From Brytella acorum (lineage in GTDB: Bacteria > Pseudomonadota > Alphaproteobacteria > Acetobacterales > Acetobacteraceae): 64,000 nucleotides of DNA. This document shows, one piece after another, positions 16,385 to 22,469 of the stretch. The notes beneath the pieces are model-generated. The model did no database searches. It saw only the letters and a program-made list of their open reading frames with translations, and was not told the DNA's origin. Each line of letters opens with the position of its first letter. Position 1 is the stretch's first letter. The position numbers and the translations under genes were made by a program. The stretch covers positions 372,001 through 436,000 of the forward strand of contig NZ_JARBJP010000002.1 in the NCBI RefSeq assembly GCF_029309905.1, in the 5' to 3' direction.

Positions 16385-16470
16385 CATGCTGGCGTGTGGT
16401 TGGGATGTCTCCATCCCGATTACCTGCGAAGCCGATCAGAACCCGTTGCGGGGTTGAAAAAAGGATTGCC

Positions 16471-17694
16471 GTGACGATGGATCGGAACAATGCTCATCGG
16501 GTCCCAGACCGGAGACCGAAGGAGAAAAAGCGTTCTCCTTTCTCTCGGGCATTTCTGATCGCTTCTGTGAGTCTCGCGGTCTTTGATTGTCGTGCTCTGG
16601 CTGACGAGCCGACAGGTCGCGCTCTGGAACTCTCCGATGCCGCTCTCAAGGCGGAAGGTGTGGAAACGCAGGTCGTGATCGCCTCGTCGCTGCATACGGT
16701 CGTCGACGCGATGGGCAGCGTGCAGGCGGATGCCAGTCGCAACGTCACGATCCGCTCCGCCGGCAGCGGCAAGGTTTCCCGTGTACTGGTCGTGCCCGGC
16801 CAGCGCGTGAAAACGGGGCAGCCCCTGATCGAATATGTCGACCATTCGCTGCATGTGATCCACCTGCAACTCGCGCAGGCGGAAGCTTCCCTGGCCTCCG
16901 CGCAGGCCGCGGGCAAGGAAGCGCGGGAGGCTCTGGCACGTGGGCGCCGTCTGGCGGGCGGCGCTGTTTCCTCCGGTGAGGTGGAAAGGCGTCGGGCCAT
17001 CATGGACCGGGCGCAGGCGGACGTTGTCGCGCGTCAGGCCGATATCGGCACCATTCGTCATCGTCTCGAGGAGGAATTCACCTCGACGACGGAAAAAATC
17101 GTTGCGGACGAGGATTCCGTGCTGATCGCGCCTTTTGACGGTGCCGTGCAATCGCTTTCCACAGCCGTGAGCGCGGATATCGAACCGGGTATGCCGGTCG
17201 CGAGTGTGGTGGACCTGTCCTCGATCTGGGTTATCGCTCAGGTTCTGCCGCAGGATGCCGCCCGTCTGCATGTCGGGGCGCCGATGCGGATGCGGATCAG
17301 CGGCGAGGGGCCGGGTGACAGCGTGGAAGGACAGGTGACGACCATCGACGGTCTCGCGGATCCGCAGACCGGGCTGGTGCGTGTCGTCAGTGTCCTGTCC
17401 CATGCGTCCGAAGCGTTCCGTCCCGGCGTGATGCTCGATGTGTCGATCGAGACGGATCAGTCAGTCGGCGGATTGGTGGTACCGCGATCGGCTGTGCAGA
17501 CGCTCGGCGGCGAGTCGGTTGTTTTCGTGGCGAACGGGGTCGGGCATTTCATCCCGCATGTGGTGCGGACCGGGGTGGGGAATGAAAGCGATGTGTTGAT
17601 CGAGGGCGGAATCCACCAGGGCGATCGCATCGTGACACGCGGCAGCTTTGCCCTGAAATCCATGACGTTACTGGCGCAGACGGATGGCGAGTAA
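16471..17694 (+). CDS. RND efflux periplasmic adaptor (membrane-fusion) subunit
   Basis: Periplasmic linker subunit of a CzcCBA/CusCBA-like pump. I start at the GTG at 16471, with AAAAAAGGA 5 bases upstream; an ATG two codons later is equally possible. About 407 residues follow. There is a signal peptide (FLIASVSLAVFDCRALA), then a barrel-sandwich half VTIRSAGSGKVSRVLVVPGQRV. An Ala-rich coiled-coil hairpin covers about residues 120-200. The second lipoyl half is LIAPFDGAVQSL, followed by the beta-barrel. It overlaps the pump gene by 11 bases, so the two are translationally coupled. No outer-membrane channel gene is in the operon. Confidence 0.88.
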   Translation: MTMDRNNAHRVPDRRPKEKKRSPFSRAFLIASVSLAVFDCRALADEPTGRALELSDAALKAEGVETQVVIASSLHTVVDAMGSVQADASRNVTIRSAGSGKVSRVLVVPGQRVKTGQPLIEYVDHSLHVIHLQLAQAEASLASAQAAGKEAREALARGRRLAGGAVSSGEVERRRAIMDRAQADVVARQADIGTIRHRLEEEFTSTTEKIVADEDSVLIAPFDGAVQSLSTAVSADIEPGMPVASVVDLSSIWVIAQVLPQDAARLHVGAPMRMRISGEGPGDSVEGQVTTIDGLADPQTGLVRVVSVLSHASEAFRPGVMLDVSIETDQSVGGLVVPRSAVQTLGGESVVFVANGVGHFIPHVVRTGVGNESDVLIEGGIHQGDRIVTRGSFALKSMTLLAQTDGE

Positions 17695-20600
17695 CGGGTC
17701 GACTTCACGTTCGGGTCTATGGTTCGCACTTCAGACCCGCAGGAAGACTCTCGCTGCGTTTGTCATGGCCCTGCTCGTTGGCGCCATGTTTCTCCTTCTG
17801 GGTCTCGCTGTGGAGCCGGTGCCGGATATCTCTCCCCGACTCGTTCTCGTATCCGCGACCCTGCCTGGCCTGGCGACGGAGGAAGTCGAAAAACAGATCA
17901 GTTTTCCGCTGGAAAGCGCGATGGTCGGCCTGCCGGGGATCGTTGATCTCCGCTCCGTGTCGAGAACGGGCGTCTCGGTCGTTTATATCCAGTTTTCCGA
18001 CGACACCGACATCATTCTGGATCGGCAATACGTGTCCCAGCGTCTCCAGACCGCGCGCGACATGATCGAACTGCCCGGACTGTCGCTGCGCATGGGGCCG
18101 TTCGCGACAGGCATGGGCGAAATCATGCAGCTCGAATTGACCGGGGGGCGGTACGACGGAATGGCGTTGAACCGGCTCATGACGTGGACCGTCGCGCCGC
18201 AGCTCAAGCTCGTTCCCGGCGTCGCGGATATCAACGTCAACGGGGGCGCCGAGGAAACATTCCAGATTGCCCTGGAGCCTTCGCGTCTGAGCGCCTTCGG
18301 CGTTTCGGTCCAGGACGTCGAGCGTGCGATCGATACCAACAATGCATCGGCCGGGGGCGGATGGATTACGCGCCAGGCAGAGCAGGAGATCGTCGTGGGG
18401 CGCGCGCGCGTCACCGATCTTGAAGCGTTTGGCGCCATACCCGTCCGGCTGGGAGGGGATGGCCGTACAATCCGTTTGACGGATATAGGCACGGTGTCGC
18501 GGGGGCCACGAACGCGCCTCGGGGCGGTCACGCGCAATGGGCTCGGAGAAACCGTGCTCGGCGTCGTCATGATGCAGCAGGGCGAGAGCTCGGATGCGGT
18601 CCTCCAGCGGATCGACGCGGCGCTGCCCGCGATCCGCAAGTCCCTGCCGCCTGGGGTGAAGCTCCTGCCGATCTATCGGCGGTCCGAACTCACGGATCTC
18701 ACCATCGATACGGTCAAGGAAAACCTGCTGATCGGGGCGGTGCTGGTTCTGCTCGTGCTGGGGGTGGTGATCGGAAACTGGCGGGCCGCGCTCGTCATCG
18801 CGTCCGTTATTCCCGTTTCGTTGCTCGCCGCGATGGCCGGAATGCGGGTCTTCGGAATTTCAGCCAATCTCCTCAGCCTGGGGGCCATAGATTTCGGCAT
18901 GATCGTCGATGCCTCGCTCGTCATCGTGGAGCATTTTCTCGCCCATCGGGATGTTTCACGCGATGCGCAGGAAAACGCCGTCCTGACCCTGCGAACCATC
19001 ATGCGTCCCGTGTGCTTCGCGGTGACCGTCATCATCATGGTCTATCTGCCGATCCTGACCCTGCAGGGGGTGGAAGGGAAGATGTTCCGGCCCATGGCGC
19101 AGACGATCATCATGGCGCTGGTGGTATCGCTGATCTATGCGCTCATATGTGTGCCGGTCCTTGCGGGTTGGGCATTGCGCAGGCCCGAGCCCGACCACGA
19201 GACGCGCTTCGTGCGTTTTCTGCGGGCCCGTTACGAACCGGCGCTGCGATGGAGCGAGGGACATTCCGGCGTTCTGATCGCCGCCGTTCTGGTTGTTTTC
19301 GCGTTCGCGGTTCTGTGTGCGTCCCGCCTTGGCGGAGAATTCGTGCCGACGCTTGAGGAGGGCGCGCTGATCGTGACCTCGATCCGTCTGCCGAGCGCCT
19401 CGCTGCCGACCGTGCTGCATTCGGTGACGGAGCAGGAAAAACTGTTGCTGGGCTTCCCCGAAGTGCGTTCGGTGGTCAGCAATACAGGGACATCGGCGAT
19501 CCCGACCGATCCCATGGGACCCGAAGAAACGGACACGTTCATTTATCTGCGTCCACGCTCACAGTGGAAAACCGCCCATACGCAATCCGAACTTGTGACG
19601 AAAATGGATGCGACGCTGATGGCGACGCTTCCCGATGCGCAATACGAATGGTCCCAGCCGATTCAGATGCGCATGGATGACATGCTGTCGGGTGTTCGCA
19701 CCACGCTGGCCCTGTCCATTTACGGGGACGATCTCGATACGCTCTGGCGCCTGGCCCACAGGGCCGCAGATACTGTGCGTCACATTCCCGGGGCCGCCGA
19801 TGTGTCTGCGGCAGGTAACGGAACCGTCCCTTTTCTGCAGGTGGATGTGGACCGGGACAGGGCGGCCCGGCTTGGCGTGGCGGTGCCGGATATTCTGTCC
19901 GTGATCGAAGCCGTGGGGGGGCATGCGGGCCGGCCGGTGGTGGTGGATAATGCGCTCGTGCCTACGCAGGTCCGCTTCGCCGCCGCGTCCGTGAGCGACG
20001 AGAAAAAAATCGGACGCTTGCGCGTGCGCCGCGCGGATGGGCGCGCGGAAGTTCTGCTCTCGGAAGTGACGCATTTCCGCGTTGTGGACCAGCCGCCCCG
20101 CATCGACCGCGACGGAATCAGGCGACGCGTGATTGTGCAGGCCAATGTGCGGGGCCGCGATACGCAGTCATTCGTTGACGAGGCCCGACGCGCGGTCGCG
20201 AAAGAGGTGGTGTTGCCGTCGGGATATCGCATCGTCTGGGCCGGACAGTTCCGTAATCTCCAGTCCGCCATGCACCGTCTCCAGATCGTCGTGCCGATCG
20301 CGCTGGCGCTGATTTTCGGGCTGCTGGTCGTGGCGCTGGGTTCCTTCGGCCTGTCGGCCATGGTCTTCGTCAACCTGCCCGTCGCAGCGACCGGCGGAAT
20401 TTTCGCACTCAGTCTGAGAGGGCTGCCGTTCAGTATCGCGGCGGGTGTCGGTTTCATTGCGCTGTTTGGCGTGGCCATTCTGAACAGCGTGGTTCTCGTC
20501 AGCCAGATTCTGGTTTTGCGTCGTGAAGGACAGAGTGCGATGGACGCCGCCTTCGGAGCCGCGCGAAGCCGTTTCCGGGCAGTGATGGCGACGGCACTGG

Positions 20601-20767
20601 TGGCCAGTCTGGGGTTCTTTCCCATGGCTTTTTCCGGTAGCGCCGGTGCGGAAGTGGAGCGTCCCCTGGCGACGGTTGTCATCGGCGGTCTGATATCTTC
20701 GACCATCCTGACGTTGCTGGTGCTTCCGACGCTTTACGCCCGACTGTTCGGACGACGCGTCGGCTGA
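17684..20767 (+). CDS. heavy-metal efflux RND transporter, CzcA/CusA family
   Basis: Inner-membrane proton-driven pump of 1027 residues, the normal size. The HME subgroup is supported by the transmembrane-4 signature AIDFGMIVDASLVIVE, with acidic residues D403, D409 and E416. These match the proton-relay positions of CzcA. The N-terminal AVEPVPDISP and the repeated large periplasmic loops with LELTGGRYDGMALNRL and ADINVNGGAEETFQI are also typical of the group. Two sets of hydrophobic segments flank the periplasmic domains. The metal cannot be named. The adaptor overlaps upstream, and a His-rich aquaporin-like gene follows 238 bases later on the same strand. Confidence 0.92.
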   Translation: MASNGSTSRSGLWFALQTRRKTLAAFVMALLVGAMFLLLGLAVEPVPDISPRLVLVSATLPGLATEEVEKQISFPLESAMVGLPGIVDLRSVSRTGVSVVYIQFSDDTDIILDRQYVSQRLQTARDMIELPGLSLRMGPFATGMGEIMQLELTGGRYDGMALNRLMTWTVAPQLKLVPGVADINVNGGAEETFQIALEPSRLSAFGVSVQDVERAIDTNNASAGGGWITRQAEQEIVVGRARVTDLEAFGAIPVRLGGDGRTIRLTDIGTVSRGPRTRLGAVTRNGLGETVLGVVMMQQGESSDAVLQRIDAALPAIRKSLPPGVKLLPIYRRSELTDLTIDTVKENLLIGAVLVLLVLGVVIGNWRAALVIASVIPVSLLAAMAGMRVFGISANLLSLGAIDFGMIVDASLVIVEHFLAHRDVSRDAQENAVLTLRTIMRPVCFAVTVIIMVYLPILTLQGVEGKMFRPMAQTIIMALVVSLIYALICVPVLAGWALRRPEPDHETRFVRFLRARYEPALRWSEGHSGVLIAAVLVVFAFAVLCASRLGGEFVPTLEEGALIVTSIRLPSASLPTVLHSVTEQEKLLLGFPEVRSVVSNTGTSAIPTDPMGPEETDTFIYLRPRSQWKTAHTQSELVTKMDATLMATLPDAQYEWSQPIQMRMDDMLSGVRTTLALSIYGDDLDTLWRLAHRAADTVRHIPGAADVSAAGNGTVPFLQVDVDRDRAARLGVAVPDILSVIEAVGGHAGRPVVVDNALVPTQVRFAAASVSDEKKIGRLRVRRADGRAEVLLSEVTHFRVVDQPPRIDRDGIRRRVIVQANVRGRDTQSFVDEARRAVAKEVVLPSGYRIVWAGQFRNLQSAMHRLQIVVPIALALIFGLLVVALGSFGLSAMVFVNLPVAATGGIFALSLRGLPFSIAAGVGFIALFGVAILNSVVLVSQILVLRREGQSAMDAAFGAARSRFRAVMATALVASLGFFPMAFSGSAGAEVERPLATVVIGGLISSTILTLLVLPTLYARLFGRRVG

Positions 20768-20946
20768 GAGTCCGCCGGGTTCCGAGGGCGCGGATGCACC
20801 CGGCCTGTGTGCGGAGAGAGCGCTGCATCTCCGGTTGCGCCGTATGAGAATAGAAAAACAATTTATGGAATATCTGTAATGTCGCGGCATCGTGACTGCA
20901 GAATGCTGTCGTCCGACCTACATCTCATCCGGAAGCTGCGATCTCA

Positions 20947-20961
20947 CGCAAAGTCTTTGCG
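20947..20961. promoter_or_regulatory. perfect 15-base palindrome upstream of the aquaporin-like gene
   Basis: CGCAAAG-T-CTTTGCG is an exact inverted repeat 44 bases before the start codon of the His-rich channel gene. Position and symmetry fit an operator. The remaining 238-base gap after the pump gene holds an AT-rich patch near 20845-20880 that could carry a promoter, and nothing else I can identify. Confidence 0.4.
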
Positions 20962-21005
20962 GGTGATTCTGATCGCAGGGGCGTGATGAATACATAGGCA
21001 GGGCA

Positions 21006-22073
21006 ATGTCAGATCTGAATGATTTGAAGGAGCCGGATCACAAGGACTGGAATCCTCACCTTCCACATCTTCATTTGCCGCATTTTCATCGCCCGCATGT
21101 GAAAATTCCTCATTTTCACTGGCCGCATTTCCATCGCCACTTTCATGATCGGCCACTCTCCGGCGAGCCTCATCCCGAAAAGCCTTTTCACTGGCGTCTT
21201 TACTGGTGCGAGGCGCTGGCCACAGCCGTCTTGATGATGGTCGGGCTCGTCTGCGTCATTCTGCTATCGGCGCCGGACGCCGTGTTCGGAAACCGTCTGG
21301 TCGTTCATCCCGTGCTCCAGACTGCCCTGTGCGGGTTGTGTTTCGGGATGGCCGGGACGGTCGCGGCCATGACGCCCTTTGGCAAGGTGAGTGGCGCCCA
21401 TCTCAATCCTTCCGTGACGCTTGCTTTCATGCTTTCAAAAAAAATCGTCTGGATCGACGCTCTCGGATACGTTCTGGCTCAGATTCTTGGCGCAGTGCTC
21501 GGTACGGCTGCGGTCTATGCTCTGGGTGCGATTTTCGAACCGTGGCGCGCTTACGCCATCGCGGCGCATTATGGCGCGACAACACCTTATGGCGGCATTT
21601 CGATCTGGTATGCGCTGGCCTCAGAAATGCTTGTCACGGGCCTGCTGATCTTCATGCTTTACTGGCTGGCGGCGCATCCCCGCTTCAACAGGCTGACGCC
21701 CTGGGTCGGCGGCATGTTCTTCTTCATCATGAATCCGATCACGGCCTGGCTCTCAGGAAACAGCGTCAATTTTGCGCGGACGTTCGGGCCGGATCTGTTC
21801 GCGGGCAACTGGAACGGTTTGTGGATCTATCTTCTGGGGCCCTTCATCGGCTCATCTCTGGCCGTGCTTGCCATCCAGGCGGATGTTTTCGGTAAGATCC
21901 ATCTGCTCGAGGCCCGGTTGGTGAACTTCGGCCACCATGGGCGCGTGCCTCATCTCGAGGATCCCGATTTCAAACATGCGGCTCCCGAGCATTACGACGC
22001 CTATCGCCAGCATATCGAAACAGTGCGTCGTATCCAGAACGGAGAGATTTCCCCGACGCCCGAGACGGACTGA
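21006..22073 (+). CDS. aquaporin-like (MIP family) membrane protein with His-rich N-terminus
   Basis: A 355-residue member of the major intrinsic protein family. The first 62 residues contain 15 histidines, 12 of them between residues 18 and 47 in repeated PHFH/WPHF patterns. This resembles a metal-binding tail. The channel core begins near FHWRLYWCEALATAV. The first pore motif is SGAHLNPS (N134-P-S in place of NPA). The second is SGNSVNFARTF (N255-F-A in place of NPA, with the following arginine kept). A C-terminal tail of about 55 residues follows the last helix. Altered NPA motifs usually change selectivity or block water flow, so transport is uncertain. It lies downstream of the metal pump, with its own upstream palindrome and a terminator after it. 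Confidence 0.85.
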   Translation: MSDLNDLKEPDHKDWNPHLPHLHLPHFHRPHVKIPHFHWPHFHRHFHDRPLSGEPHPEKPFHWRLYWCEALATAVLMMVGLVCVILLSAPDAVFGNRLVVHPVLQTALCGLCFGMAGTVAAMTPFGKVSGAHLNPSVTLAFMLSKKIVWIDALGYVLAQILGAVLGTAAVYALGAIFEPWRAYAIAAHYGATTPYGGISIWYALASEMLVTGLLIFMLYWLAAHPRFNRLTPWVGGMFFFIMNPITAWLSGNSVNFARTFGPDLFAGNWNGLWIYLLGPFIGSSLAVLAIQADVFGKIHLLEARLVNFGHHGRVPHLEDPDFKHAAPEHYDAYRQHIETVRRIQNGEISPTPETD

Positions 22074-22099
22074 CGGCGCGGATCCGGATGTCACAAAAA

Positions 22100-22131
22100 A
22101 AATCGGGGAGGGCTTGAATCCGCCCCGATTT
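22100..22131. terminator. bidirectional intrinsic terminator
   Basis: A 9-base-pair stem, AAATCGGGG/CCCCGATTT, has a 14-base loop. On the minus strand eight T residues follow, ending the DUF2934 operon. On the plus strand TATTTCT follows, ending the aquaporin-like gene. Confidence 0.85.
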
Positions 22132-22151
22132 ATTTCTGAGCTTCCTTTTTA

Positions 22152-22469
22152 TCAGGCGTCGCGCTCGTTTTCCCTTTCAGGGAAATGCGCGCGATCGCCC
22201 TGATCGGTCAGGCGTTCGGGGAACTCCCCAAGATTTTCCTGAATGCGGGCATTCTCGACCTGTATGTCCGCGAGGTCGGGGGGCGGAAGGTCGGACACGG
22301 GGATTTCGCCCGCCGTGGGATTTTCTTCCATGCCGACGAGATCGCCCGCCTGTTCGAGATAGGCGTCCGCGCCGCAGCCGGGTTTGCCGTCAGCTTCCCA
22401 TAATGCCCGGGCCCTGGCCTGGATCCTGGCGTTGCGGGTCTCGCTGGGTTCGAGAGGGTTGTCGGACAT
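22152..22469 (-). CDS. DUF2934 domain protein
   Basis: A 105-residue, acidic, probably cytoplasmic protein. The N-terminal part, IQARARALWEADGKPGCGADAYLEQA, matches the short helical DUF2934 domain. The remainder (about residues 45-105) is Pro/Glu/Asp-rich and looks disordered. The function of the family is unknown. It lies 18 bases downstream of the dienelactone hydrolase gene on the same strand, so the two are probably co-transcribed and share the terminator at 22100-22131. Confidence 0.75.
   Translation of the reverse strand: MSDNPLEPSETRNARIQARARALWEADGKPGCGADAYLEQAGDLVGMEENPTAGEIPVSDLPPPDLADIQVENARIQENLGEFPERLTDQGDRAHFPERENERDA

Follow-up and report, generated by a model that had tools for sequence, protein, structure and literature searches.

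The window, by which we mean the whole 64,000-nucleotide stretch of Brytella acorum DNA that was analysed, encodes an aquaporin-family variant that is conserved and apparently undescribed within the literature searched; titles and abstract openings on the aquaporins and MIPs of acetic acid bacteria and on His-rich aquaporin tails, with few subscription journals covered, yielded no description of the subfamily. The protein combines two altered pore motifs with a long histidine tail, and it belongs to a clade of altered-motif MIPs that, judging from sequence comparison, appears to be confined to the Acetobacteraceae so far as searched. The explanation that we tentatively favor, at rather less than an even chance, is a small-solute channel that replaces AqpZ and is perhaps gated by cytosolic acidification.

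The channel gene and its pore

The coordinates, frame and length that a sequence-only reading had assigned to the gene are correct (Table 1), and its view of the product as aquaporin-like is borne out by the Pfam MIP profile (126.2 bits, the cut-off being 25), which places it in the MIP superfamily, and by the structure modelling for which it had asked. None of the NCBIfam cut-offs is reached, the score against NCBIfam aquaporin Z being 64.7 bits where 256 are required. A first structure prediction, of the full-length protein from 17 rows, was of low quality (mean pLDDT 48.6); a second, of residues 40–330 with more diverse MIPs as rows, reached a mean pLDDT of 74.1 and a pTM of 0.76, and matches solved aquaporins with Z of 24–26, fold matches that do not distinguish among aquaporin types. 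The His tail region has no confident placement in either prediction. In the model the half-helix HB spans residues 135–143 and HE starts at residue 256, which is consistent with an unbroken half-helix. As a member of the MIP family, the protein is presumably tetrameric. The host genome (3.3 Mb, completeness 99.81) encodes three MIPs; besides the window gene there are one of GlpF type and a second relative.

Table 1. Positions in the window of the channel gene, its parts and the adjoining pump genes.
Feature	Position	Strand	Basis or remark
CzcB	16396-17694	+	upstream of MIP
CzcA	17684-20767	+	TIGR00914, 920.5 bits, cut-off 701.45; ends 238 nt before MIP
MIP (aquaporin-fold) channel gene, 355 aa, ATG start	21006..22073	+	ORF list, Pfam, model
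Freely varying N-terminal leader, residues 1-17	21006..21056	+	dN/dS
Conserved histidine tail, residues 18-47, 12 His	21057..21146	+	counts, alignment, dN
Signature DRPL[AS]GxPHPxxxxH before first membrane helix, residues 48-63	21147..21194	+	alignment
Loop B motif N134-P135-S136	21405..21413	+	sequence, family alignment
Loop D His224	21675..21677	+	21/21 in alpha
N243-P244 in TM5; N243 is the H5 filter position	21732..21737	+	56/56 family members
N252, the LE1 filter position (N or D in family)	21759..21761	+	family alignment
Loop E motif N255-F256-A257 with R258	21768..21779	+	sequence, family alignment
Conserved cytosolic C-terminus, residues 299-338; His299, 310, 311, 316, 324, 329, 336	21900..22019	+	

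The pore motifs depart from the orthodox NPA/NPA pair, reading NPS and NFA with the following arginine kept, exactly as had been noted from the sequence, and these departures are conserved in relatives. The loop E proline is absent in all 56 of the clade members compared (window gene included), in which the motif reads NFA, NLA, NFM or NFT; residue 256 is a phenylalanine in 34 and a leucine in 22, and Ser136, Asn243, Pro244 and Arg258 are identical throughout, the variation lying at residues 252 (Asn or Asp) and 134 (Asn or Ser). All 56 therefore have the alternative arrangement in which one motif carries a serine and the other has lost its proline. The three proteins of the sister group are NPA/NPA, each with an alanine at the third position of the loop B motif. 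In a non-random sample of 70 other Pseudomonadota MIPs there is not a single case of a missing loop E proline, of an asparagine at H5, or of an asparagine or aspartate at LE1; two of the 70 have NPS together with NPA, so the serine by itself does not compel loss of the proline.

Similar pairs are known elsewhere. The structure of the Plasmodium aquaglyceroporin PfAQP (3C02) has NLA and NPS, and Ostreococcus MIPB has NPS and NAA, for which it has been suggested that hydrogen bonding between the serine hydroxyl of NPS and the main-chain amide of the replacing residue restores the lost contact; the same paper suggests that the NPS/non-proline arrangement has arisen several times (PMC3111385). The Trypanosoma aquaglyceroporin TbAQP2 likewise has one NPS motif and one without proline, although there the proline is lost from the first motif (residues 130–132) and NPS is the second, whereas in the window protein it is the second that has lost its proline (PMC12803511). 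The order seen here, NPS first, is that of MIPB and of a Bartonella apis GLP (NPS with NAA), but these have an alanine where the window family has phenylalanine or leucine, the likeness is by motif, and the MIPB filter is Y-L-G-R or Y-F-G-R; the passages concerned mention no His tail in either protein (PMC3111385; PMC6912568). Because a survey of prokaryotic aquaporins also records NLA in Leuconostoc carnosum and NPN with NEA in Sulfolobus, loss of the loop E proline is already known in prokaryotes, and a term search of that survey's text gives neither Acetobacter nor Gluconobacter (PMC6912568). Solved PfAQP is no better a match to our model (Z of 24.3) than many other aquaporins, and is distant in sequence (E of 4.6e-9 by profile). 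By analogy with PfAQP and MIPB, Ser136 and the non-proline residue 256 look like the two halves of one compensating pair, and the two odd motifs are thus probably a single coupled change.

Alignment with AqpZ- and GlpF-type proteins gives a selectivity filter of F113-N243-N252-R258. AqpZ (F-H-T-R) shares with the window protein the MIP fold, the phenylalanine at H2 and the arginine at LE2, but differs from it at H5 and LE1, both asparagine here, and in the pore motifs; the aquaglyceroporins of GlpF type have a tryptophan at H2 and a glycine at H5, where the window protein has phenylalanine and asparagine. Among prokaryotes generally, H5 is mostly His/Ile in AqpZ homologues and Gly/Ile in GlpF homologues (PMC6912568).

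Relatives with 71–77% identity in their best segments were found at 17 loci in named genomes of Acetobacter, Gluconobacter, Gluconacetobacter and Novacetimonas. Across the taxonomic family, 86 of 249 genomes match at E <= 1e-10, many of the matches being ordinary MIPs of 25–39% identity. A 36-member profile, the search with which was limited to the class, gave four matches at E <= 1e-30 in a sample of 385 genomes containing few Acetobacteraceae; those in the host genome and in a second genome of the same family (G066) score 453–596 bits, and the other two score 111–113 bits and have NPA in loop E. In a maximum-likelihood tree of 74 rows, 57 rows, all from Acetobacteraceae, form one clade (support 100/99), with loop E reading NFA in 28, NLA in 22, NFM in five and NFT in one, the last row being a fragment; the sister group consists of three proteins from two Acetobacteraceae genomes. 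With a midpoint root and several long branches, a single loss of the loop E proline in this clade is the simplest reading of the tree rather than a proof. A phage origin was considered and rejected, as the sole IMG/VR match is on a contig equal in length (31,896) to the A. senegalensis contig that carries one of these loci, and is taken to be chromosomal.

Histidine-rich ends and subclades

The count of 12 histidines among residues 18–47 that had first drawn attention to the N-terminus holds, and the tail is kept in relatives. It is built of a repeat of about five residues, P-H-(hydrophobic)-[HKR]-(hydrophobic), and no 30-residue stretch in the non-random sample of 70 other MIPs contains more than five histidines. 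With 14 in residues 1–61 and seven in residues 294–355, the window protein has 21 at its two termini taken together. The signature following the tail is invariant at D48, R49, P50, L51, G53 and H62 in 36/36 rows. We divide the clade into five subclades, under names of our own (Table 2), of which alpha alone is marked by the long His tail.

Table 2. Histidines at the two ends of clade members, counted in the 30 residues before DRPL and then after FGHxGxxP.
Subclade	n	His before DRPL	His after FGHxGxxP	Remark
alpha	21	8-12	4-6	window gene included
alpha_k	4	5-6	3-5	some counted residues may precede the true start
beta	8	0-2	1-2	
gamma	15	1-3	0-4	second host-genome relative included
delta	8	4-8, plus 3-7 Lys/Arg	0-1	

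In alpha, His31, 38, 41, 43, 45 and 47 are kept in 21/21 members and the sequence H-W-P-H-F-H-x-H-F-H at residues 38–47 is likewise retained in all, while residue 36 is not a histidine in 8/21. Delta members have histidines at residues 31, 36 and 41 in 8/8, an arginine at residue 43 in 5/8, and at residue 38 either a histidine (4/8) or an arginine or lysine (3/8). Residue 33 is a lysine or arginine in 28/36 rows, and together with delta residue 43 this hints, at the level of sequence, that one position of the repeat calls for positive charge, a hint that is compatible with metal binding as well.

Comparison of 17 close pairs, not independent because some sequences recur among them, shows that dN in the tail (residues 18–47) is 0–0.06 in 12 pairs and 0.095–0.178 in five Gluconobacter pairs; it is lower than that of the pore core in ten pairs, equal in one and higher in six, these being the five Gluconobacter pairs and one of A. 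estunensis. Tail dS could not be computed in 5/17 pairs and is at least 0.8 in ten of the remaining 12. In the leader (residues 1–17), dN/dS is about 0.4–3.5 in ten of 11 measurable pairs, and since tail dN is low while the leader evolves in this manner, the tail is not a product of chance.

The idea that the altered loop E motif and the tail would occur together is upheld within alpha, where both are conserved, but fails for the clade at large, as 23 beta and gamma paralogues have altered motifs with 0–3 histidines before DRPL. One of these lies in the host genome itself (C2:316649-317317, about 55 kb before the window); it reads SPS/NFA and has no His tail. His-rich N- and C-tails do occur together in all 21 alpha members (8–12 and 4–6 histidines), and in the alpha C-tail H316, H324 and H336 are present in 21/21 and H329 in 20/21. 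None of positions 316, 324, 329 and 336 is a histidine in alpha_k, in which the C-tail has 3–5 histidines elsewhere. The loop D His224 is found in alpha (21/21), alpha_k (4/4) and beta (8/8), and is often replaced by arginine or lysine in delta and gamma; because beta has it without a tail, it is not tied to the tail.

Gene neighbourhood, host MIPs and possible functions

The sequence-only reading had joined the channel to the CzcA-type pump and proposed a role with metals. As a general link this pairing fails: CzcA, CzcB and ten other window neighbours have no match (E <= 1e-4) at any other locus fetched, including 24 from alpha and alpha_k in genomes other than that of the window (L004-L020 and L078-L084, two of which have a short upstream flank, L004 with 1.3 kb and L012 with 0.4 kb), and a metal operon is rejected as a conserved arrangement. 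It had also named what would count against it, and here the outcome is divided, in that the clade is non-canonical and its tail is not free to vary, whereas a conserved link to metal genes is lacking; its interpretation is, overall, partly supported. We note that czcB runs 11 bases into czcA, and that no outer-membrane czcC-like frame was recognised beside them in the list of open reading frames. Besides the MIP and the frames that overlap it, at least two groups recur across genera in L004-L020, aldehyde-dehydrogenase-domain genes and aldo/keto reductases, each at 6/17 loci, with distances and strands that vary, so that neither is an adjacency; the remaining groups among the clusters listed are within Gluconobacter, and ten frames near the MIP gene at five loci belong to varied Pfam families or to none. 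Aldehyde-dehydrogenase-domain genes lie less than about 5 kb from the MIP gene in L005, L011, L015, L018, L019 and L020 (PutA in L011 and L015), a proximity that is probably due to chance.

We surveyed the MIPs of 21 alpha and delta genomes, classing those outside the family by motif reading. An AqpZ-type filter is present in one (G037) and was not seen in the other 20; GlpF-type MIPs are present in 15. In six delta genomes of about 2 Mb (G242, G032, G169, G210, G117 and G066) the His/Arg-tailed family member is the only MIP, and its loop E motif is NFM or NFT. Two gamma-like places (G042:C2 and G183:C4) were assigned by identity alone, and one G042 fragment is left outside the classes. Because no AqpZ was seen in most hosts, the family seems, from these sequences, to stand where AqpZ would, although the GlpF-type MIPs in 15/21 genomes mean that replacement is not proven.

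The reading that we tentatively favor is that of a passive channel, from a distinct MIP subfamily of the Acetobacteraceae, acting in place of AqpZ. Its half-helices would probably be held, by analogy with PfAQP, through a hydrogen bond between Ser136 and the backbone amide that is free in Phe256. As its polar filter lacks the AqpZ histidine, the pore would be expected to admit water and perhaps small uncharged solutes, undissociated weak acids possibly among them, and not metal ions. In alpha the cytosolic face would comprise the His-rich N-tail, the His-rich C-tail and the loop D histidine; these would titrate when the cytosol acidifies, for example through leakage of acetic acid into the cell, and once charged the tails would shut or otherwise set the channel. 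Conduction, substrate, hydrogen bond, pH sensing and its direction are all steps that we infer. The MIP profile and predicted fold, the Ser136/non-proline 256 pair in 56/56 beside an NPA/NPA sister group, and the aligned F-N-N-R filter speak for the channel, the survey of 21 genomes (AqpZ filter in one, sole MIP in six delta genomes) for its place, and the low tail dN in 12/17 pairs, the joint occurrence of both tails in alpha (21/21), the basic residues at position 33 (28/36) and at delta position 43 (5/8), and His224 in 21/21 alpha members for a titratable face. Plant PIPs are not known to carry such a His tail, and show no special closeness to the window protein in sequence. They do share with it a conserved loop D histidine, which serves them as a cytosolic acid sensor (PMC9604103). 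Against the reading as a whole, N- and C-tail histidines are not strictly linked (4–8 against 0–1 in delta, and elsewhere in position in alpha_k), His224 is also present in tail-less beta (8/8), the tail evolves faster than the core in 6/17 pairs and lacks a confident model, and GlpF-type MIPs accompany the family in 15/21 genomes.

Several of these observations would fit other explanations. It is possible, though somewhat unlikely, that the channel is an ungated substitute for AqpZ, conducting water or small solutes, with a tail that serves in holding the tetramer, in binding anionic lipid or in sorting; the failure to see an AqpZ type in 20/21 genomes suits this, as do the beta and gamma paralogues with the same pore motifs and no tail, and the alternation of basic and hydrophobic residues in the repeat is suited to lipid binding, but the six histidines kept in 21/21 alpha members suggest a titratable or metal-binding role. 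A metal-responsive channel or reservoir, in which Zn, Ni, Cu or Co would bind to the tails, either to gate the channel or to be stored, with no need of the Czc pump, we consider unlikely. The density of histidines, the invariant alpha sequence at 38–47, the His-rich C-tail and the CzcA-family pump adjoining the gene in the window genome are in its favor, and a metal site would also explain delta His38 (4/8) and His31, 36 and 41 (8/8); the missing czc match at 24 other alpha and alpha_k loci, the lack of any conservedly adjacent gene in L004-L020 among the clusters listed, and the arginine or lysine at delta residues 43 (5/8) and 38 (3/8) weigh against it.

Yeast Fps1 reportedly combines NPS/NLA motifs with long regulatory cytosolic tails, a likeness to the window protein in working principle and not a claimed kinship. 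A role for Fps1 in acetic acid entry, perhaps condition dependent, has been proposed, and yeast cells regulate this channel by way of Hog1 and endocytosis (PMC8361955). That the window protein is itself a facilitator of this sort, its NPS/NFA pore and polar filter passing undissociated acetic acid, lactic acid, glycerol or dihydroxyacetone, is in our view improbable: the motif arrangement and the occurrence of its relatives in acetic acid bacteria agree with it, but the filter is unlike the W-G type of the aquaglyceroporins, GlpF-type channels are present alongside in 15/21 genomes, and an open acid channel without gating would damage the cell. Returning to acid gating, its boldest form, which we regard as distinctly doubtful, is that acetic acid bacteria have swapped their water channel for an alternative-NPA channel with its own acid sensor, His clusters at both ends giving about 80 histidines per tetramer and gating water or undissociated acetic acid by internal pH, as an independent bacterial counterpart of Fps1.

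Exclusion or passage of acid in acetic acid bacteria is an old question of vinegar microbiology, and this conserved channel, unusual in its pore and putatively titratable on its cytosolic face, offers a single gene open to deletion and assay. Paralogues that have the same pore motifs, some with a tail and others without, amount to a natural experiment on what the tail does, and the clade is a bacterial set for probing the effect of NPS/N-x-A on selectivity; in TbAQP2, pentamidine transport falls by 95% when the pair is changed to NPA/NPA (PMC12803511). Genes of this kind may be concealed by the annotation aquaporin Z, of which a Komagataeibacter paper counts three copies, possibly but not necessarily of the window family (PMC8621423).

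Sequences upstream of the gene

A sigma-70 pattern scan of positions 20740-22200 found no promoter. Directly upstream of the ATG, at 20984-21005, is a block like GAATACATG, and similar blocks precede the A. oeni, Gluconobacter and Novacetimonas genes and are missing upstream of those of A. sicerae, A. estunensis and A. senegalensis; the block may serve as a promoter element or, in some species, may provide an alternative in-frame start. The gap that separates czcA from the MIP gene contains, at 20947-20961, a perfect inverted repeat, CGCAAAG-T-CTTTGCG, which is possibly an operator.
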